A stretch of DNA of 64,000 nucleotides from Pseudomonadota bacterium (GTDB lineage Bacteria > SAR324 > NAC60-12), in the NCBI GenBank assembly GCA_004213175.1, contig SHAT01000005.1, forward strand, positions 1 to 64,000, given 5' to 3'. Position 1 is the stretch's first letter. Each line of letters begins with the position of its first letter. The notes under the pieces are model-generated. The model worked only from the letters and a program-made list of their open reading frames with translations. It had not been told where the DNA came from and made no database searches. Both the position numbers and the translations under genes were made by a program. Shown piece by piece: positions 2,004-31,004 of this stretch.

Positions 2004-4200
2004 TAGTCGTTTTCTTACAGAATTTCATGAACAGACAGACACTTCGCCACTTAACTATGTTTCCGGCCACTTCACTCAAGAAAATTTCCAGTAAATTATT
2101 CAACTGATCAGCAGTAAAATGTGATGATAAAAGTTTCCAGTAATTGGATTGACTATTTTCAGGTTGAACTGCAAACCATTGTTCGATTTGCGATGTCCGA
2201 ATTAGGGTTGGTGTGAAGAACTCTTTAACCTGCCAGCGAATGATGTCCCAATCCGCCGATTCCAGTTCATTACGCAGAGTTTTAGGTGTCCAGTTGCAGC
2301 GCGTGTTTTCAGAATCGTTATATATTTCCTCTTCTGCGGATTTTAGATTATTCAGAAATTTTGGTTCCATATTTCCTTCCGGAATTAGTTCTGAAAGACG
2401 CTGTCCAAGTGCAGGCACTGTTTCCACGATGACGAAGAAACCATCCGGTAAAATCCAAGGTTTTAAAGTTTCCAGGAAGGCTGTTTTATTTTGGTGGTTT
2501 TGCAGTATGTTACGCCCAACAATCCGTTCAAAACCTAAATCAGGAATTTCGAATGCCTTCGGATTTCCGGAACTGTCCTGTACTATTTTAGGTTTAATTC
2601 CAGAAGATGGATTTTTGAACATTGTGCTGAGTGTTTGTTTTTCTTCGGAAGAATATACAAGCGCATAAAGATTTTCTTCAGGAATCTGACGCAGAAATTC
2701 ACCGAGTAGTAACCCGTCTGCGGCATTAAGAACAAGTGCCATAATATTACGTGATAGTTTGCTCCATTTTAGCAAAATGTCACGGATTTCATTAAGTAAT
2801 TCGCCTGAACTGCCAATGGTTCGGGCTTCCCAGTAATTTGAGTTTTCTGATTGTTCAACCGCTGATTGAGAAAGAAAAGCTGCCAGTTGGGCTTCCCGAT
2901 GTCTTGCCACATTATCCTTGATTGTTGCTTCATAACCTTGATTGGACGGCTGATAAAAAATCCTCCCCTGTAAAACATCCGGAAGGTATTGCTGTGCAAC
3001 CCAGTGATCACGGAATGCATGCGGGTAGAGGTAACCTTCTCCGTGACCAAATGCCTTCCCGTCTCGGTTTCCATCTTTGAGCATGTCAGGGACCTCGTCA
3101 GATTTTTCCTTACGTACGACCGAAATTGCGTCAAAAAAAGCGAAAACAGAGTTGCTCTTTGGTGCAGTACTTAAATATAAACAAGATTGTGCAAGGTGGT
3201 AACGTCCCTCCGGCATTCCTACATAATCAAATGCCTGTGATGCGGATGTAACAACAGCTAATGCGTGTGGATCTGCCATTCCTACATCTTCACTGGCAAA
3301 AATGAGCATTCTTCGAAAAATGAATCTCGGGTCTTCACCTGCCTCTATCATTTTCGCCATCCAAAAAAGTGCAGCATCCGGATCTGAACCACGCATAGAT
3401 TTAATAAAAGCGGAAATTGTGTCAAAATGTGCGTCTCCGTCTTTGTCATAAAGTACTGCCCGTTGCTGAATTGATTCTTCTGCAATTTCCAAAGTTATCT
3501 TTAGGATATCTTCAGAGTTAGCTTCACTTGTTAGCACCGCTAGTTCGAGCGCATTTAATGCAGTCCTGGCGTCACCGCCAGCTACATTTGCAAGGTGCTG
3601 ACGAGCACGGTCTTCGATGACTATTTTTTTTTCTCCAAACCCACGTTCCGGATCTGAGAGTGCTTGTAAGATTATATCCTCAACTTCATCTGAATTAAGG
3701 GATTGAAGCTGAAAAATTCTGGATCGGCTTACGAGTGCTTTGTTGACTTCAAAATATGGATTTTCTGTAGTCGCACCTATTAAGATTATGGTACCGTTTT
3801 CAACATGTGGTAGAAGGGCATCCTGTTGAGCTTTGTTGAAACGGTGAACTTCATCGATAAACAAAACAGCACGTTGCTGTTGTTCTGCGCGTGCTTTTTT
3901 GGCGGTTTCTATACAATTACGGATTTCAGTGATTCCTGATAAAACCGCATTTATGGAAATAAATTCAGCTTGAGTTGTATTGGCAATTATACGGGCAAGT
4001 GTAGTCTTGCCTGTTCCTGGAGGTCCATAAAAGATCAGGCTCGACAATTGATCAGCCTGAATGGCACGTCGCAAAAGACGTCCCGGTGCCAAAATGTGGC
4101 TTTGGCCGACAAACTCTTCAATTGTCCTCGGACGCATACGGTCCGCTAAAGGAGCTTCTTTACGGATTTGAATTTCGTGTGTGTGTTCAAATAAATTCAC
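1993..4200 (-). CDS. rarA: RarA/MgsA replication-associated ATPase fused to a methyltransferase-like domain
   Basis: 735 residues, against about 440 for ordinary RarA. The N-terminal part is a AAA+ clamp-loader-like ATPase acting at stalled replication forks: Walker [10 protein letters not shown] at about residues 59-67 and Walker [10 protein letters not shown], followed by the MgsA C-terminal region ([23 protein letters not shown]). From about residue 440 a second domain follows with features of a SAM-dependent methyltransferase fold: [16 protein letters not shown] like motif [13 protein letters not shown], and a strand [16 protein letters not shown]. RarA-plus-extra-domain fusions are known in cyanobacteria and some other bacteria. 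The start codon is GTG; the next ATG would remove the conserved [11 protein letters not shown]-terminus. Divergent from ligA. Confidence 0.92.
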
Positions 4201-4257
4201 TTAGAAGCCTGTCTATTTTTAGAAATGAATGGAACTTTTACTACTGAGTTTATATAG

Positions 4258-6336
<2,079 letters not shown>

Positions 6337-6435
6337 ATGAACTGATTCGTAACTAATACTTGCTGTATGAGAACATTGTTTAATAATATCAATTATTAAT
6401 TTCCTTATTCCTGATGTAAGCTATAAGGGTTCTAA

Positions 6436-6600
6436 ATGGAAAGGCATAGCACCTGGAAAAAATTCAAGAGCTTGTTTCACGAAATTCAAATAGATACTCT
6501 TATTGGACTTGAATTAAAATCTGTCTTTCTGGTCAAGTCTGAGATGAAAATAGAACAAAATTATCAGGATATACTAACCAGTATTAAGAATATTAGCTAA
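6436..6600 (+). CDS. Possible small ORF of 54 residues
   Basis: This lies in the 391-base ligA-galU spacer and is below the track's size limit. An ATG preceded by AAGGG at a six-base distance opens a 54-codon frame, MERHSTWKKFKSLFHEIQ... ending SIKNIS. The product would be a soluble, basic, helical peptide with no signal sequence. I recognise no family. The good Shine-Dalgarno spacing is the only positive evidence, so it may be a chance ORF. Confidence 0.3.
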   Translation: MERHSTWKKFKSLFHEIQIDTLIGLELKSVFLVKSEMKIEQNYQDILTSIKNIS

Positions 6601-6610
6601 ATTTGAATTG

Positions 6611-6638
6611 ATACTGAGAATTTCAGTATATTTTCTTT
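6611..6638 (+). terminator. Possible hairpin/terminator upstream of galU
   Basis: A perfect 7-bp stem (ATACTGA / TCAGTAT) with a five-base loop is followed by a T-rich stretch (ATTTTCTTT). The stem has low GC, so termination would be weak. It could end a transcript of ligA or of the small ORF at 6436. The rest of the 6601-6727 spacer is AT-rich and holds nothing else I recognise. Confidence 0.35.
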
Positions 6639-6727
6639 ACAAACACTGTTAGATAATTATCTGCATAGAAATATTCTAACTACTGAATACTGAAGATCAC
6701 ATAAAAACATATTACTTGAAAATATAA

Positions 6728-7612
6728 ATGAAAGGTGTAATTTTAGCCGCTGGCTATGCGACTCGTTTTTTGCCTGCCTCAAAAACAATCCCCAAGGAAA
6801 TGTTTCCTCTGATTGACCGTCCGGCCATTGATTTCATTGTACAGGAAATGGTTGATTCAGGTATACACGATATCTTGCTGGTATCTTCGCGCAGAAAAAA
6901 AGTAATGGAGGATTATTTTGATCGTGAAGTAGAGCTTTCTTCCGCATTTTCGGAGTCCCAAGAATATGAAAAACTGAAAGTAATAAAACCGATAAAGGCT
7001 AATATTTTCACACTGCGTCAGCAGTATATGATGGGTACAGGGAATGCGTTGATGTTGGTGGAACCGTTTGTGAATAATGAACCGTTTGTGGTAGCCTATC
7101 CGGATGATATTGTGTTGGGTGAGAAACCTCTTTCCAAACAACTGATTGAGACCTGGGAAAAAACTGGCGACACAGTTTTGAGTGTTCAGGAATTGAGTGA
7201 AGATCAATTATCGCGTTACGGTGTGATTAATAAGGAAGGTGAAGGAAAAATTATGAAAGTCAAAAATATGGTGGAGAAACCGAAACCTGGTACGGCACCC
7301 AGCCGCTTTGTTTCTTTCGGACGTTATCTCTACACGCCAGAACTTTTTAATGCACTGCGAGCTAGCGACAAAAGACAATCTTCAAAAAGTGAATTTACTC
7401 AAACGGAAGCCATCAACCAAATGGCCAAAAATAGAAACGTTTCAGCGTTACAATTCGAAGGAACACGTTATGATTTGGGAGATCCACTGGGGTTTCTGAC
7501 TTCCGCAATGCAAATAGGTTTGCAGCGCATGGAATTCAAGGGTGATTTACTAGATGAAATGCGGAGACTGCTTAAACTGCATGACGATCCTAAGGGGGAA
7601 AACATCCATTAA
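6728..7612 (+). CDS. galU: UTP--glucose-1-phosphate uridylyltransferase
   Basis: 294 residues, typical length. It makes UDP-glucose from UTP and glucose-1-phosphate, feeding surface polysaccharide and LPS synthesis. The nucleotidyltransferase signature GYATRFLPASKTIPKEMFP is at the N-terminus, followed by the substrate-binding segment FVVAYPDDIVLG, then YGVINKEG and MVEKPKPGTAPS. The gene stands alone between two long spacers. Confidence 0.96.
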   Translation: MKGVILAAGYATRFLPASKTIPKEMFPLIDRPAIDFIVQEMVDSGIHDILLVSSRRKKVMEDYFDREVELSSAFSESQEYEKLKVIKPIKANIFTLRQQYMMGTGNALMLVEPFVNNEPFVVAYPDDIVLGEKPLSKQLIETWEKTGDTVLSVQELSEDQLSRYGVINKEGEGKIMKVKNMVEKPKPGTAPSRFVSFGRYLYTPELFNALRASDKRQSSKSEFTQTEAINQMAKNRNVSALQFEGTRYDLGDPLGFLTSAMQIGLQRMEFKGDLLDEMRRLLKLHDDPKGENIH

Positions 7613-22448: not shown

Positions 22449-22579
22449 CAATTATATGGGACTATAGTGATGTTCTTCAAAATCATTACGTTTAGACTAG
22501 TTTTCAAGACAAAAATCAGCTACGAAATTAAAATAAAGATGATTGATCTGCAAACATAAGTTAATCTGAAATATTTTTG

Positions 22580-23578
22580 ATGATGCAAAACATAGAAGAA
22601 TTGCAGGAATATCTATTCAGTTTAACGAATGGTGTAAATCTGTCAGGTCAAACAGTTACTGCTGCTCCAGGAGGCTTGCCGACTCCGTGTTTCCCGAATG
22701 TAATAGAGAAAGTTTTAAAGATTTTGACTGGGGACGAATGGGACGAACTGACTGAACGTGCACAGAATTACCTTAAATGGATTTCAGTAAAAGCTGAATG
22801 TATCGACGCTCTTGCTCCTAGACAAGAACATACAACGACACATGGATTTGAGTTGTTGGCTATGGACAGAGATGCAAATAGTTTTGGTGAAATAGTAGAT
22901 CGTTCACAAGAATTATCTATTCCTTCGGTATTGGTACGTTTTGCTTCACTGGTAGCTACATTTCTGACTGTTCGTTTACTGAGACAACACATGGAAAGTG
23001 ATCAGGAAAGTATGCCTTCACTGACATTTTCGCAAAATGTTGACTCTTTTTATTTGAATTATCCCCGAACATTAAAGATACTCTTGGAATTGTTTCCGGA
23101 GTATCATGAAATGTTTTATTTTGAAATCAATGAAGAAGTCACCGAAGATTATTTAACTACCATACGCGCACTTGCGGAAGATTTGGGAATACGGCTCGCT
23201 CTCGATGATACAAACAAAATGAATGTAAACGTGCATCATCAATTGCTGGACCTTGCAGATTGGATCAAGATTGACTTTCAGGCGACAGCGTATCTGGAAG
23301 AGCAGTTGTTGGGTGGTGAAGGAGAAAATATTATACAGCATTTTGAAGAATATGCTCATGGCGCAAGGTCTCCGGTTATTGTGTTTGAAGGACTTCAGGA
23401 AACTTCACCTTTAAAAGTGTTTTTTGAAGAACGTTGGAAAATTCTTGATACAGTACTTTACTATCAAAGCAGGGAGCGCTTGCCAGTTCATCCCTGGAAC
23501 AAATATTTTGGTTTAATTCAGGACTATCATGAAGACAAATATGGGCTCTTTTTTAAAGGATTGATCAATGATAAATAA
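22580..23578 (+). CDS. Degenerate EAL-domain-like protein
   Basis: 332 residues from the ATG at 22580 (ATG at 22583 equally likely). An N-terminal alpha-helical half of unknown type precedes a C-terminal half that follows the EAL (c-di-GMP phosphodiesterase) pattern: FYFEINEEVTEDYLTTIRAL, LGIRLALDDTNKMN in place of ALDDFGTG, and LADWIKIDF like the IKID strand. The diagnostic EAL triad and most of the catalytic acidic network are not visible, so catalysis is unlikely; a c-di-GMP or protein-binding role is possible. Its last 11 bases overlap the start of the beta-propeller gene. Confidence 0.65.
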   Translation: MMQNIEELQEYLFSLTNGVNLSGQTVTAAPGGLPTPCFPNVIEKVLKILTGDEWDELTERAQNYLKWISVKAECIDALAPRQEHTTTHGFELLAMDRDANSFGEIVDRSQELSIPSVLVRFASLVATFLTVRLLRQHMESDQESMPSLTFSQNVDSFYLNYPRTLKILLELFPEYHEMFYFEINEEVTEDYLTTIRALAEDLGIRLALDDTNKMNVNVHHQLLDLADWIKIDFQATAYLEEQLLGGEGENIIQHFEEYAHGARSPVIVFEGLQETSPLKVFFEERWKILDTVLYYQSRERLPVHPWNKYFGLIQDYHEDKYGLFFKGLINDK

Positions 23579-25074: not shown

Positions 25075-25905
25075 ATGCTGATTGTAGGAACATGGGGGGC
25101 TTTGTTGCTTTATATTATCAGTTGGATATCTGGGCTTTTCCCGCCTTTTGACAAAACTTCCAGCTCAAAGTTTCAGATATGGACTGAGCTTATAGGAATT
25201 CGAGTTGGCTGGATTATTCATACTTTTGCTTTGCTTGGATTATTATGGACTAAATCAGTATGGCCCACAACTTTTGTAAGTGATATACTTAGCGTTGCCT
25301 CATGGGTTAGTATATTGTTAATACAGGCCTTACCAGAAAGGCTGCCAAGTTTAGTTAACACGTCAATAGTTCGGCTTTTTGCAATTCTGCTGCTGGGGTT
25401 ATCTCTCATTATTTTTCAGTTTCAAATCTCGACGAGTGAAATTGTATCTGATAAAACTTGGCTTTATCAGGTTTTGCTTGGATCTCACATAATCATACTT
25501 ATAGCAGGTTATGTTATGCTGGGAGTCGCCTGTGTATCCAGCACCATCTTTCTATATCAGGAGCACCATCTAAAAACAAAACTCGTAACCTCGATGATGA
25601 TCCGTTTCCCTGCACTGGTTACACTGGACCGTCTCAGTTGGCAGGGAACCCTATGGGGTTTTTTGGCTTTGAGTATAGGTATTATGCTGGGGATATTAAT
25701 AAATAAAGATGATCAGTCTTTAATGGCAAACTTAAGATTTGGGGCATCGATTAGTGCCTGGTGTGTGTTTGCTATGCTATTACTGTTGCGCCAACTGCAA
25801 GTTATTCGTTCCAGTTGGAAAGCAATTTGGCCGATTGTAGGATTTAGCCTAGCATTAATGTCATTAATAGTGGAAATATTAAGATTGAATCTTCAAGAGT
25901 TCTAA
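25075..25905 (+). CDS. CcsA/HemX-like polytopic membrane protein
   Basis: 276 residues with about eight transmembrane helices. The central VLLGSHIIILIAGYVMLGVACVSSTIFLYQEHHLK block resembles the CcsA/HemX cytochrome c assembly family (LH..LGY...A......LYL.QE). The tryptophan-rich haem-handling motif of true CcsA is not visible, so the HemX/YpjD subgroup fits better. Such genes usually sit by hemA; here hemA is 25 kb away. A 217-base spacer upstream is AT-rich and featureless. Confidence 0.6.
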   Translation: MLIVGTWGALLLYIISWISGLFPPFDKTSSSKFQIWTELIGIRVGWIIHTFALLGLLWTKSVWPTTFVSDILSVASWVSILLIQALPERLPSLVNTSIVRLFAILLLGLSLIIFQFQISTSEIVSDKTWLYQVLLGSHIIILIAGYVMLGVACVSSTIFLYQEHHLKTKLVTSMMIRFPALVTLDRLSWQGTLWGFLALSIGIMLGILINKDDQSLMANLRFGASISAWCVFAMLLLLRQLQVIRSSWKAIWPIVGFSLALMSLIVEILRLNLQEF

Positions 25906-25964: not shown

Positions 25965-26918
25965 ATGAAACAGGCTGCTAGTGAAAAAGATCTTTTAGAC
26001 ATTGAGAATGATATAGAGAGGATTCAAACTGCAATTAAAAATAAATTGGGTGTATCAAATCCTTTTTTAGCAGATATTGCTCACCATATAATTACTCCTC
26101 ATAACAATTCAACTAGATCTAGGCTGTTGCTGCAAAGTGCAAATCTCTTTAAGAAACCAGATGAAGATGTGATTGAAATAGGTTGCACTTTAGAATATTT
26201 GCACACGGCCTCTGTGTTGCACCGGCATATTAAAAAGCCTGAAAACGCAAGGCGTCACATGAAGCATGTCCAAAAATTATGGGGCTCAGAGGCAAGTGTT
26301 TTGCTGGGTGATTATCTCCTTTCGATATCATTTCAAATCTTAACACGCTTAGGTAATTTGGACGTGCTGGAATGTGTTTCTCTCGCTACACAAAATATTT
26401 CAATGGGACAAGTGCTTGAAATTTCAGAGCCTACTCTCACTGCGTCTCCAAAACACTGGCGGAATGTAACTCGTGATAAAATTGCGGGGCTATTTGGTGC
26501 AGGCGCTAAAAGTGCTGCTTACTGGGCAAATGCTTCTCAAGCTACAGCATCTACCTTGTATGCATTTGGCGAAACTGTGGGCATGGCAGCTCAACTTAAA
26601 ACCGAGCTTGATGTTATTGATGATGAGGAACGGTTTAAAGAGACATTGAAAGAAAAGGAATTATGGTTTCCTCTCTGCTTTTTACTTCACGAATGTTTAA
26701 CGAAAAGTGAATTAAGTGAAATGACAGAAAAATTGCAGGAAGATTTTGAACTGGAGAAAATGATTAGAGAGCTTAGAGTGCTTTTCAAACAACATAATCT
26801 GCATGAAAAAATGAAAGCGGAGGCCGTGCTGGAGTTGATAAAAGCAAAAGAATGTCTTGAACAACTTGAATTGGATTCAACTTCTCTTCAACCTTTAACT
26901 TCATATTCAACGATTTGA
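25965..26918 (+). CDS. Polyprenyl-synthetase-family protein lacking both Asp-rich motifs
   Basis: 317 residues aligning with IspA/IspB-type trans-prenyl synthases. The flanking sequence TLEYLHTASVLH and LWGSEASVLLGDYLLSISFQIL is unmistakable. The first catalytic DDxxD (normally LLHDDVVD) reads VLHRHIKKP, and the second (normally FQIVDDLLD) reads AAQLKTELDV. The GKRLRP diphosphate-binding motif is also altered (NSTRSRL). Prenyl transfer needs Mg2+ held by these aspartates, so the protein should be inactive as an enzyme; a regulatory or subunit role is possible. The reading frame is intact and its stop is one base before the next start, suggesting co-translation with the isomerase gene. Confidence 0.85.
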   Translation: MKQAASEKDLLDIENDIERIQTAIKNKLGVSNPFLADIAHHIITPHNNSTRSRLLLQSANLFKKPDEDVIEIGCTLEYLHTASVLHRHIKKPENARRHMKHVQKLWGSEASVLLGDYLLSISFQILTRLGNLDVLECVSLATQNISMGQVLEISEPTLTASPKHWRNVTRDKIAGLFGAGAKSAAYWANASQATASTLYAFGETVGMAAQLKTELDVIDDEERFKETLKEKELWFPLCFLLHECLTKSELSEMTEKLQEDFELEKMIRELRVLFKQHNLHEKMKAEAVLELIKAKECLEQLELDSTSLQPLTSYSTI

Positions 26919-26919
26919 T

Positions 26920-27732
26920 ATGCCAGAATCACTGAAAATAAAGATTGATTCAGCAATTGCAGAAATTGAATTAAACCGTCCGGACAAAGCAAATGCGATT
27001 GATGAAGATCTATGGTTTTCCTTAGAAGATTGTTTTCGTGAATTAGACGAAACTGAAGCAGTTCGAGTGTGTATCCTGAGCGGTGTCGGTAGTCATTTTA
27101 CTTCAGGAATTGATCTTAAATTTTTACAGTCAGTAGGCCAGGAAGTTGAACATTTTAAATGTGAAGGGCGTAAACGTGAATATTTGCGACGCAAAATAAT
27201 AAAACTTCAGGCTGCATTTACACAAATAGAAAAGTGTCGCAAACCAGTTCTAGCTTCAATTCACGGGGGTTGTATAGGTGCGGGTGTTGATTTAATAAGT
27301 GCCTGCGACCTTCGTTACTCAACAAGTGACGCAGTCTTCCAGATAAAAGAAATTGATATTGGGCTAACCGCTGATGTTGGAACTTTACAGCGGCTTCCCA
27401 AGTTGATACCACGTGGTATTGTTCACGAATTAGCCTACACGGCGCGTAAATTTTCTGGCGAAGAAGCACGTGAATTTGGTTTGGTTAACAGTTGTTATGT
27501 TGATCATGAATCCTTAATTAGTGAAGTCCGGAATATTGCTGAACAAATCGCAGGAAAATCACCTTTAGCCATTCGCGGAGTTAAGGAAATGCTATTACAC
27601 TCGCGTGATAATTCAGTTGCAGACGGACTTGATTATGTAGCAACATGGAATTCCGCCATGCTTCTTTCTTCTGATTTGGAGGAGTCTTTAATGGCGATGT
27701 TGCAAAACCGTTCTGGTGAATATAAGGATTGA
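26920..27732 (+). CDS. Enoyl-CoA hydratase/isomerase, delta3,5-delta2,4-dienoyl-CoA isomerase-like
   Basis: 270 residues of the crotonase fold. The segments GAGVDLISACDLRY and FQIKEIDIGLTADVGTLQRLP closely follow eukaryotic ECH1, including the Asp, Glu and Asp catalytic positions of that dienoyl-CoA isomerase. A role in beta-oxidation of unsaturated acyl-CoAs is likely. Coupled to the pseudo-polyprenyl-synthetase gene upstream. Confidence 0.85.
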   Translation: MPESLKIKIDSAIAEIELNRPDKANAIDEDLWFSLEDCFRELDETEAVRVCILSGVGSHFTSGIDLKFLQSVGQEVEHFKCEGRKREYLRRKIIKLQAAFTQIEKCRKPVLASIHGGCIGAGVDLISACDLRYSTSDAVFQIKEIDIGLTADVGTLQRLPKLIPRGIVHELAYTARKFSGEEAREFGLVNSCYVDHESLISEVRNIAEQIAGKSPLAIRGVKEMLLHSRDNSVADGLDYVATWNSAMLLSSDLEESLMAMLQNRSGEYKD

Positions 27733-27842: not shown

Positions 27843-30800
27843 ATGATACCCCGCCTTAGTCATCCGGAAAGTACACCTGAAATTGTGCAAAGTTTTCTGG
27901 CAGAGCTGCGTCAAAGTAGTTTTTCAGGGGACATTCAGCATGATTATGGAACACGTCTTATAACATCAACTGATAACAGCATTTATCAGGTGCTTCCTCA
28001 AGCAGTTGTTTTTCCGAAAAACACAGGTGACATCGAAGCGGTGCTACTCTTAACAGCTCAGCAGAAATTTTGTCAAAGTATAAAAATTACAGCACGCGGC
28101 GGAGGTACCGGTACCAATGGGCAGTCACTTACTAAAGGCATCGTGCTTGATTGTTCGCGTTATATGAACCGTATTCTTGAAGTGAATATTAAGCAGGGTT
28201 GGGTACGTGTAGAACCGGGTGTGGTTCTAGACCAATTAAACGAACATCTTGTGCCGCATAGTGTATTTTTTGCGCCCAATTTGTCCCCGAGTAATAGGGC
28301 AACTATTGGTGGGATGGTCAATACAGATGCTTGTGGAAAAGGTTCTCGTATTTACGGACGAACCAGCGACCATGTTTTAGAGTTGTCTTGTGTTCTTTCT
28401 AACGGAGAAACTCTTGAATCAGTTCCTCTAGATGAAAACAATCTAAGTGCATACAAACAAAAACCTGGAGTAGCGGGTGAGGTGTTTAAAGTTGTTGATC
28501 AAATTGTTCTGGAAAAAGCAGATTTGATTGATGAAGTTTTTCCTAATATGAGCCGTTTCATGACTGGTTACAATTTAGCGAAAGTTTACGGTAATTCGGA
28601 AAAAAACTTTAACTTAAACTATTTACTTTCGGGATCGGAGGGCACATTAGCAGTTTTGAGTGAGCTCAAACTGCGTTTGACGGATTTACCTAAATACAAA
28701 AGACTCCTAGTTGTAAAATACGAACAATTTGATGATGCGCTTCGTGATGCACAAATTTTGGTTGAGAGTGATCCGGCCGCGATTGAGACAATTGACGAAA
28801 AAATTCTCAGTCTGGCAAAAGAAGATGAAATATATTTAAAAATTAAAGATTTCATTGAAGACGAAAAACTTAAGTCTGGGAAAATAAATCGACCGACTCG
28901 TACCATCAGTCTAATTGAATTTTGCGGAAACAATAAAAACAAATTGGAAAATCAGATTTCTGCGCTATGTAAAATCATTGATGCGAAGAAAAATAAATCT
29001 GGAGAAGCAACGGGTTACTACAAGACTGCTGATCCTCAGGAAATAAAAAGTCTGTGGAGTTTAAGAAAAAAAGGTGTTGGACTTTTGGGTAACACAAAAG
29101 GAGAGCGCAAACCACTGCCTTTTGTGGAAGATACGGCTGTTCCTCCGGAAAATCTGGCGATCTACATTCGTGATTTTCGTAAATTACTTGAATCATATGG
29201 TTTGGAGTACGCCATGTTCGGGCATGTTGATGTAGGGTGTTTGCACGTTCGTCCCGCGTTAGATTTGAAAAATCTGGAGGAGGAAGGCTGGATACGTGAG
29301 CTTTCAGATCAAGTGGTGGCGCTGGTTAAAAAATACGGTGGTGTGATGTGGAGCGAACACGGTCGTGGTTATCGTAGTGAATACACAGTAGAATTTTTTG
29401 GTGAAGAACTGCATCATGATTTAAGACGCATCAAAGAAGCGTTTGATCCGGAAAATCGTCTCAATCCGGGAAAAATTGTCACCCCGATTTCTCAGGGTAC
29501 AGATAAAGTGGTGTCTATAGAAGGGCCTTTAAGGGGACATAAAGACCGGCAGATTGCTCCGGAATTGTTGAAGGAATATGAAACTGCAGTTAACTGTAAC
29601 GGTAACGGTGCTTGTTTCGATTATTCATCTAAAAATGTGATGTGTCCTTCTTCCCGGATTACACGTAACAATGTCCATTCTCCGAAGGGCAGGGCTGGCA
29701 TGATGCGGGAATGGCTCCGGTTGGTTTCCTTGTCTTCGGGAATAGAAGCTTCGACATCAAATAATTCAAGTTCGAATTTGAGCGGTTTTCTTCAGATGAA
29801 CTCCGCTGCTAAAAATTTTTTCTATAGTTCCTACAACAAAATAAAAAATACTATTCGTAAAAATCATGGTGAATATGATTTCTCCCATGAAGTTTATAAA
29901 TCAATGGCTGGATGTTTAGTCTGCAAAGCTTGTGTGACCCAGTGTCCGGTACATGTAAATGTCCCAGAATTCCGTTCAAAATTTTTAAACCATTATCATT
30001 CCAGATATTTACGTCCACTCAAAGATTATCTGGTTGGCTCAACTGAAACAGTCGGACGTTTATTTTCAAACATACCACGTACGGCAAACACGATAATAAA
30101 GTGGCCTTTGATTCGCAATTTTATGGAGGAAAAAATTGGTTTAAGAGATTTTCCTTCATATAGTCCTGAATCTGTTCGGCAACGTCTGCTTGATTCAAAT
30201 GCGGCTGAATTCGATCTGGATAATTTTAACTCTTTTTCACAGCAAGAGCATGAAAGTAGTGTAATCTTTGTTCAGGATGCATTCACTTCGTTTTATGAGT
30301 CTCAGCTTGTGCTTGAATTTTATGAATTACTGAGAAAATTGAACTACAATGTTTATGTAGCGCCATTTCATCCAAATGGTAAACCACTGCTCGTAAAAGG
30401 TTTTTTAACCCAATTCCGTAAAGTTGCAGAAAAAAACGCAAAGTGGCTGTCACATATCGCGTGCTCCAGAATTCCCATGGTCGGACTTGATCCCAGCGTG
30501 GTTTTGACTTATCGTGATGAATATTTAAAAATTCTTGGAGAAAATGAGTTGCCTTTTAAGGTCCTGTTGCCACAGGAATTTTTAGTTATGAATTCAGCTA
30601 AACATAGTAATTATGTGGCTGTTGTTTCCAAAAAATTACAGGAATATCAATTGTTGGGACACTGCACTGAAAAAACCGATGCCCAGCTCTCACAGAAGCA
30701 ATGGAAGGAAGTATTTGAGACATTTGGATTGTCACTGAGTCTGATACCTGCAGGTTGCTGTGGAATGGCTGGAACTTATGGACATGAAACAGAACATTAT

Positions 30801-31004
30801 GAAGAATCACGTGGAATCTATGATTTAAGCTGGAGCGATAAAATTCCGCAAGATCCTTTTTTGCGACAAAACATTTTGACCACCGGTTTTTCCTGCCGTA
30901 GTCAGATAAAACGTTTTGAAGGTTTTCGGCCATTACATCCTCTTCAGGTTTTACTAAGAGAAATAAAATCGGGTAGTTTAGAAAACAGTTCAGCGTCTGC
31001 CTGA
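27843..31004 (+). CDS. YdiJ-type FAD/Fe-S D-2-hydroxyacid dehydrogenase
   Basis: 1053 residues, close to E. coli YdiJ (about 1018), which oxidises D-2-hydroxyglutarate. Order: N-terminal MIPRLSHPES, FAD-binding PCMH domain (RGGGTGTNGQSLTKG, SPSNRATIGGMVNTDACGKGS), FAD-oxidase C domain (FGHVDVGCLHVRPAL, WSEHGRGYRSEYT), an Fe-S region (CNGNGACFDY..MCPSSRITRNN and CLVCKACVTQCPVHVN) and a C-terminal CCG-type cysteine domain (AGCCGMAGTYGHE). Dehydrogenase and Fe-S electron-transfer parts are thus fused in one chain. Confidence 0.93.
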   Translation: MIPRLSHPESTPEIVQSFLAELRQSSFSGDIQHDYGTRLITSTDNSIYQVLPQAVVFPKNTGDIEAVLLLTAQQKFCQSIKITARGGGTGTNGQSLTKGIVLDCSRYMNRILEVNIKQGWVRVEPGVVLDQLNEHLVPHSVFFAPNLSPSNRATIGGMVNTDACGKGSRIYGRTSDHVLELSCVLSNGETLESVPLDENNLSAYKQKPGVAGEVFKVVDQIVLEKADLIDEVFPNMSRFMTGYNLAKVYGNSEKNFNLNYLLSGSEGTLAVLSELKLRLTDLPKYKRLLVVKYEQFDDALRDAQILVESDPAAIETIDEKILSLAKEDEIYLKIKDFIEDEKLKSGKINRPTRTISLIEFCGNNKNKLENQISALCKIIDAKKNKSGEATGYYKTADPQEIKSLWSLRKKGVGLLGNTKGERKPLPFVEDTAVPPENLAIYIRDFRKLLESYGLEYAMFGHVDVGCLHVRPALDLKNLEEEGWIRELSDQVVALVKKYGGVMWSEHGRGYRSEYTVEFFGEELHHDLRRIKEAFDPENRLNPGKIVTPISQGTDKVVSIEGPLRGHKDRQIAPELLKEYETAVNCNGNGACFDYSSKNVMCPSSRITRNNVHSPKGRAGMMREWLRLVSLSSGIEASTSNNSSSNLSGFLQMNSAAKNFFYSSYNKIKNTIRKNHGEYDFSHEVYKSMAGCLVCKACVTQCPVHVNVPEFRSKFLNHYHSRYLRPLKDYLVGSTETVGRLFSNIPRTANTIIKWPLIRNFMEEKIGLRDFPSYSPESVRQRLLDSNAAEFDLDNFNSFSQQEHESSVIFVQDAFTSFYESQLVLEFYELLRKLNYNVYVAPFHPNGKPLLVKGFLTQFRKVAEKNAKWLSHIACSRIPMVGLDPSVVLTYRDEYLKILGENELPFKVLLPQEFLVMNSAKHSNYVAVVSKKLQEYQLLGHCTEKTDAQLSQKQWKEVFETFGLSLSLIPAGCCGMAGTYGHETEHYEESRGIYDLSWSDKIPQDPFLRQNILTTGFSCRSQIKRFEGFRPLHPLQVLLREIKSGSLENSSASA

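Follow-up and report, generated by a model that had tools for sequence, protein, structure and literature searches.

The gene at positions 25965–26918 (forward strand) of the window, the 64,000-nucleotide stretch of a SAR324 genome analysed here, encodes a D-less polyprenyl-synthetase paralogue of 317 amino acids, which we call ps. We propose that ps probably serves solely as the non-catalytic subunit in a long-chain trans-prenyl diphosphate synthase of heteromeric type, and that IspB is its most likely partner. We favour this reading because ps is not expected to carry out the chemistry, its pairing surface is kept, it is inherited together with IspB and it is under purifying selection. The pairing of ps with IspB, its stoichiometry and its effect on chain length or activity are what we infer from these observations. 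"Polyprenyl synthetase", the automatic label for ps, is misleading.

The ps frame starts with ATG, runs for 317 codons and ends with TGA at 26916–26918. The ATG of the next gene lies at 26920, which leaves one base between the two genes. Both the open frame and the one-base gap had been noticed in the first-pass annotation and were confirmed on the sequence. The same annotation had called the product a full-length polyprenyl-synthetase homologue, and this was borne out by a Pfam profile search, in which ps matched PF00348 over residues 34–266 with an E-value of 6.4e-30 and 104.6 bits (cut-off 27). The AF2 model of ps, computed with 21 orthologues, has a mean pLDDT of 86.6 and a pTM of 0.86, and the profile and the fold both place ps in the PF00348 homology family. 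As found with Foldseek, the nearest solved folds are IspB-type octa- and decaprenyl synthases, with TM-scores of up to 0.81–0.85 against the E. coli octaprenyl synthase (3wjk/3wjo). PDSS2 and Dlp1 were not among the best structure-library matches. The sequence matches of ps among solved structures are also octa- and decaprenyl diphosphate synthases.

In trans-prenyltransferases the two Asp motifs form the Mg2+ sites, and the IPP site consists of the GGK lysine, the KxxR arginine and the RR pair. ps was aligned with the IspB-like protein of the same genome. The first motif, LHDDVVDGAETRR in the IspB-like protein, reads LHRHIKKPENARR in ps, where the former DDxxD (codons 87–91, 26223–26237, forward strand like all features given here) is now RHIKK. 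The second motif changes from FQIVDDALDY to AQLKTELDVI, with TELDV in place of DDxxD (codons 213–217, 26601–26615). The alignment agrees with the replacements by RHIKKP and KTELDV reported earlier from the sequence of ps. It also revealed a loss that had not been mentioned: GGKRLRP of the IspB-like protein is HNNSTRS in ps, and the IPP-binding lysine is gone. At this GGKxxR site (codons 48–51, 26106–26117), the lysine is replaced by N48, whereas R51 is kept.

The losses are uniform in the family. None of the 24 family orthologues has Asp at any of the three Asp positions of the first motif. In the second motif, the first Asp is found in one orthologue, the middle one in 18 (E in the other six) and the last one in two, and the intact motif in none. 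The GGK lysine is absent from all 24, and the second IPP lysine, that of RKxTLP, is present in three. With neither the first motif nor the lysine in any of the 24, and no intact second motif either, chance is excluded. The residues that replace the motifs differ among genera (R or Q at one position; H, N, K, Q or R at another; a variable third position). The basic residues that are kept include R51 of KxxR (24/24), R96 (24/24) and R97 (22/24) of the RR pair downstream of the first motif (codons 96–97, 26250–26255), K172 (23/24, with R in the remaining one) and H80 (16/24). Of the marks of a catalytic trans-prenyl diphosphate synthase, namely the first DDxxD, the second DDxxD and the GGK lysine, ps has none. 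Because residues of the Mg2+ and IPP sites are lost, the known ionisation chemistry is not expected of ps. In the most diverged orthologue (L132/L153, genome G022, contig C5), DD persists at the second motif (LQIHDDAQTC). This remnant is consistent with stepwise loss of the motif and may represent an intermediate.

The dN/dS of ps was 0.11–0.33 in 13 pairwise NG86 comparisons, which excludes neutral drift and points to purifying selection. For IspB, the values were 0.13–0.22 in genus-level pairs and 0.06–0.07 in two pairs from other genera. The mirror-tree correlation of ps with IspB was 0.93 and so did not stand out from the 0.88–0.95 obtained with control genes.

Helices E and F make dimer contacts in trans-prenyltransferases (PMC7261888). 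The AF2 model of ps has helices at residues 109–129 and 132–152, which by alignment, from their position after the first motif, would correspond to E and F. The presumed dimer interface thus spans codons 106–152 (26280–26420), as judged from conservation, the AF2 model and the published interface (PMC7261888). We compared the column entropy of the 24 D-less proteins with that of 26 IspB proteins of the same family. Over residues ~106–152 it was 0.63 bits per column in ps and 0.61 in IspB, whereas over the rest it was 1.75 and 1.06, respectively. Residues 106–152 are the only stretch of ps as conserved as in IspB (Mann-Whitney p 4e-7), and the same contrast appears when ps is set against 24 diverse canonical synthases (p 5e-8), both p-values being indicative only, since related sequences and columns are not independent. 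When 47-column windows were moved over the whole protein, the smallest difference between ps and IspB was found in the window starting at residue 105. Columns that are conserved in IspB are kept by the D-less proteins within 106–152 (0.40 bits) and not elsewhere (1.36 bits). The ratio of E/F entropy to that of the rest was 0.87 in the 24 diverse canonical synthases, 0.59 in SAR324 IspB and 0.36 in the D-less set. The consensus sequences of ps and IspB are 57% identical within the E/F region and 25% elsewhere. The E/F region of ps is near that of IspB (WGNEASVL.GDYLLS) and unlike that of the short-chain synthase (HGTALALNSGDALL). At the end of helix F (codons 149–152, 26409–26420), the invariant GExxQ of IspB is changed to GQxxE in the D-less clade. 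The swap E149Q occurs in 24/24 and Q152E in nearly as many, and it recalls the GQxxD form of short-chain synthases.

The genome of the window (G000) encodes three PF00348 proteins: an IspB-like protein (contig C56, 247.7 bits), a short-chain IspA-type protein (contig C47, 190.5 bits) and ps (105 bits). The search for canonical enzymes suggested with the first annotation therefore yielded both an IspB-like and an IspA-type synthase, and both Asp-rich motifs are kept in each. The ispB gene is not linked to ps. Just upstream of it, at 2311–6894 (L157) of contig C56, lies a gene for a 1527-residue protein; it runs 8 bases into the start of ispB. The protein combines ACCA/Carboxyl_trans acetyl-CoA carboxylase carboxyltransferase, biotin carboxylase and biotin-carrier domains, and the same arrangement occurs in genome G004 (L158). 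It is unusual to find such a carboxylase, with everything in one chain, next to ispB.

In a sample of 31 genomes from the eight genera of the SAR324 family, ps was found in 24 genomes and in all eight genera. All 24 carriers also have an IspB-like gene with all motifs kept, so that the D-less homologue coexists with an intact long-chain synthase in every case. The closest orthologues of ps come from genomes whose titles read SAR324 cluster, Candidatus Lambdaproteobacteria or Deltaproteobacteria. A scan of named genomes returned 80 loci, of which 21 are ps orthologues. The other 59 (L055–L113) have canonical motifs apart from single-residue variants, although the scan was pattern-based and D-less proteins elsewhere, unrelated to ps, could escape it. 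In G020, a 92% complete genome, no ps was found: one of the genes that flank ps in its genus-mate is there, but ps is not next to it. Therefore, IspB without a ps partner may be sufficient in some members of the family. ps was also not found in G006, G008 and G027–G030. Its usual neighbour was likewise not found in these six genomes, so an assembly gap and gene loss are indistinguishable there.

In a maximum-likelihood tree of 87 proteins, the D-less proteins form one clade (100/100), in which the inner order is unsure owing to the long branches of L132 and L026. Beside it lies a group (97/77) that includes SAR324 IspB (92/81) as well as IspB proteins from outside the family but within its order and class. 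This position of the clade indicates that the duplication predates the family. The tree thus traces ps to a duplicated IspB-type synthase, with the duplication no later than the base of the SAR324 family. One orthologue (L017, genome G010, contig C3) is ~15 residues short at the N-terminus, with a stop just upstream and a TTG start, and its branch is long; either degradation or use of a different start may explain this. Genus g2 has a further protein of ~395 residues, which matches ps only over residues ~31–131 (E ~1e-12) and is possibly another odd relative of the prenyl synthases. It is encoded on contigs C299 of G017, C163 of G024, C96 of G027, C226 of G028, C14 of G029 and C261 of G030.

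Upstream of ps lies a cytochrome c assembly gene of CcsA/CcsB-like type (25075–25905, PF01578, 5.8e-09), which adjoins ps in at least three genera. The gene that follows ps encodes a crotonase/enoyl-CoA hydratase of PRK06142 type (26920–27732, NF004794, 4.8e-106) and is adjacent to it in two genera. Within the genus of the window, the order CcsA-like gene, ps, crotonase and FAD-linked oxidase is constant, and a single base separates ps from the crotonase gene. In genera g3, g5 and g6, however, the neighbours of ps are unrelated to this set, so the neighbours do not define the function of ps. Operon context was dropped as a functional clue, as the CcsA-ps-crotonase arrangement occurs only in part of the family. 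The gene at 27843–31004 encodes a 1053-residue protein that by eye appears to combine FAD-linked oxidase and Fe-S parts, similar to glycolate/lactate oxidases. It is syntenic across the genus and also in g4 and g8. Another gene syntenic across the genus, at 22577–23578, encodes a conserved protein that matches the EAL domain with 19.6 bits (cut-off 31.3). Its product is possibly a degenerate c-di-GMP-related protein.

MenA is present in relatives of the window's genome, and MqnA/D was not found in the genus; the long-chain polyprenyl product therefore probably serves menaquinone by the classical route. The futalosine pathway was rejected on the same grounds. In the window's own genome, which is 83% complete, MenA was not found.

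In the scheme that we suggest, a duplicated IspB-type synthase was stripped of its metal-binding Asp motifs and of the lysines that bind IPP, but not of helices E and F. Its partner would most likely be the cell's own intact IspB-like protein. This IspB would do the chemistry and ps would stabilise it; ps would also shape the product tunnel near the interface and in this way set chain length or activity. MenA would then use the polyprenyl diphosphate for menaquinone. The basic residues that remain allow a further reading of such a complex. ps could be a subunit that senses isoprenoid diphosphates, reading IPP or the product and tuning menaquinone chain length or flux allosterically. This reading, which rests on retained diphosphate-binding arginines and lysine combined with the loss of metal binding, is decidedly doubtful.

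The first-pass annotation had left the choice between a regulatory subunit and a protein with a new ligand. Conservation of helices E and F favours the subunit, yet these helices suit a homodimer of ps equally well. The main alternative, raised by the same basic residues (R51, R96, R97, K172 and, in 16 orthologues, H80), is that ps, as a pseudoenzyme, forms homodimers, binds either an isoprenoid diphosphate or some other anionic ligand, and serves as sensor, carrier or regulator independently of IspB. Its place in a conserved cluster with the CcsA-like and crotonase genes in the genus would agree with such a role, but the gene context varies across the family. Moreover, neither the metal positions nor the two IPP lysines (that of GGK and the second one) are maintained and the residues there vary, the active-site columns show relaxation and no newly fixed pattern, and the former active-site loop (residues 90–103, including R96–R97) has a pLDDT below 50. 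A ligand role of this kind is possible but unlikely.

The partner could also be the short-chain synthase, since an IspA-type protein with both Asp motifs (L002) is encoded in the same genome and small subunits of plants pair with short-chain synthases (PMC7839719). However, the tree places the origin of ps with IspB, and its E/F region resembles that of IspB, which makes this pairing very unlikely. Purifying selection, the full-length fold and the invariant polar residues H86, Q149 and S154 would fit an enzyme with a new, metal-independent activity. We regard this as highly improbable, as the residues at the motif positions vary by genus, unlike a newly fixed catalytic site, and conservation is highest at the interface. 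Decay or a sequencing or assembly artefact, to which the shortened, long-branched copy of G010 might point, can be practically dismissed: the frames are open in 24 separate assemblies, including AG-439-L22 (whose record title does not carry MAG), the motif loss is uniform, dN/dS is low and the origin of ps is older than the family. The earlier argument against decay is upheld, and the two findings that it named as contrary, close relatives with DDxxD and a near-neutral dN/dS, were not seen among the 24 family orthologues and the 13 pairs.

The preferred reading of ps as a partner of IspB has counterparts in known systems. IspB, a homodimer, shares fold, length and the E/F helices with ps and gives its best sequence and fold matches, whereas both Asp motifs and the IPP lysines are lost in ps. 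HexA and HepS are short, highly diverged proteins. Like ps as proposed, HexA (Micrococcus luteus) and HepS (Bacillus) are bacterial non-catalytic subunits of long-chain synthases, but ps keeps an IspB fold at full length, the latter as the earlier annotation had held. Membership of ps in this group was rejected, since HEPPP_synt_1 (PF07307) scored 13.7 bits against a cut-off of 30 (E 0.047) and the length also speaks against it. In HexA/HexB, the small subunit HexA may control chain length (PMC7839719).

The small subunits of plant GPPS and GGPPS (mint GPPS.SSU, SSU-I/II) are, like ps, non-catalytic paralogues without DDxxD. Mint GPPS consists of an active subunit and a non-catalytic small subunit, and plant small subunits pair with an active large subunit and alter product length or activity (PMC7839719). 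In contrast to ps, they make short-chain products in plants and have a separate origin. Dlp1 and PDSS2 (the latter in human mitochondria), the D-less subunits of the S. pombe and human decaprenyl diphosphate synthases, also lack the Asp motifs and have an intact long-chain synthase alongside; Dps1/Dlp1 and PDSS1/PDSS2 form heterotetramers that require both members (PMC4049637). Dlp1 and PDSS2 are eukaryotic and serve ubiquinone, whereas the ps clade groups with bacterial IspB. The proposed likeness concerns function. To our knowledge, the known bacterial heteromeric long-chain synthases have a short, strongly diverged small subunit, and full-length D-less partners come from eukaryotes. In the open literature, subscription papers aside, the non-catalytic partners are eukaryotic, plant or short bacterial proteins, and we found neither a bacterial partner that is both D-less and full-length nor any account of SAR324 ps. 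Heteromeric prenyl synthases with an inactive subunit are thus known already, and what would be new is a full-length D-less version in SAR324 bacteria. If this is true, the way in which isoprenoid chain length is set by an inactive subunit could be studied in a small bacterial system, and the PDSS2 arrangement arose more than once, here in an abundant marine bacterial lineage.
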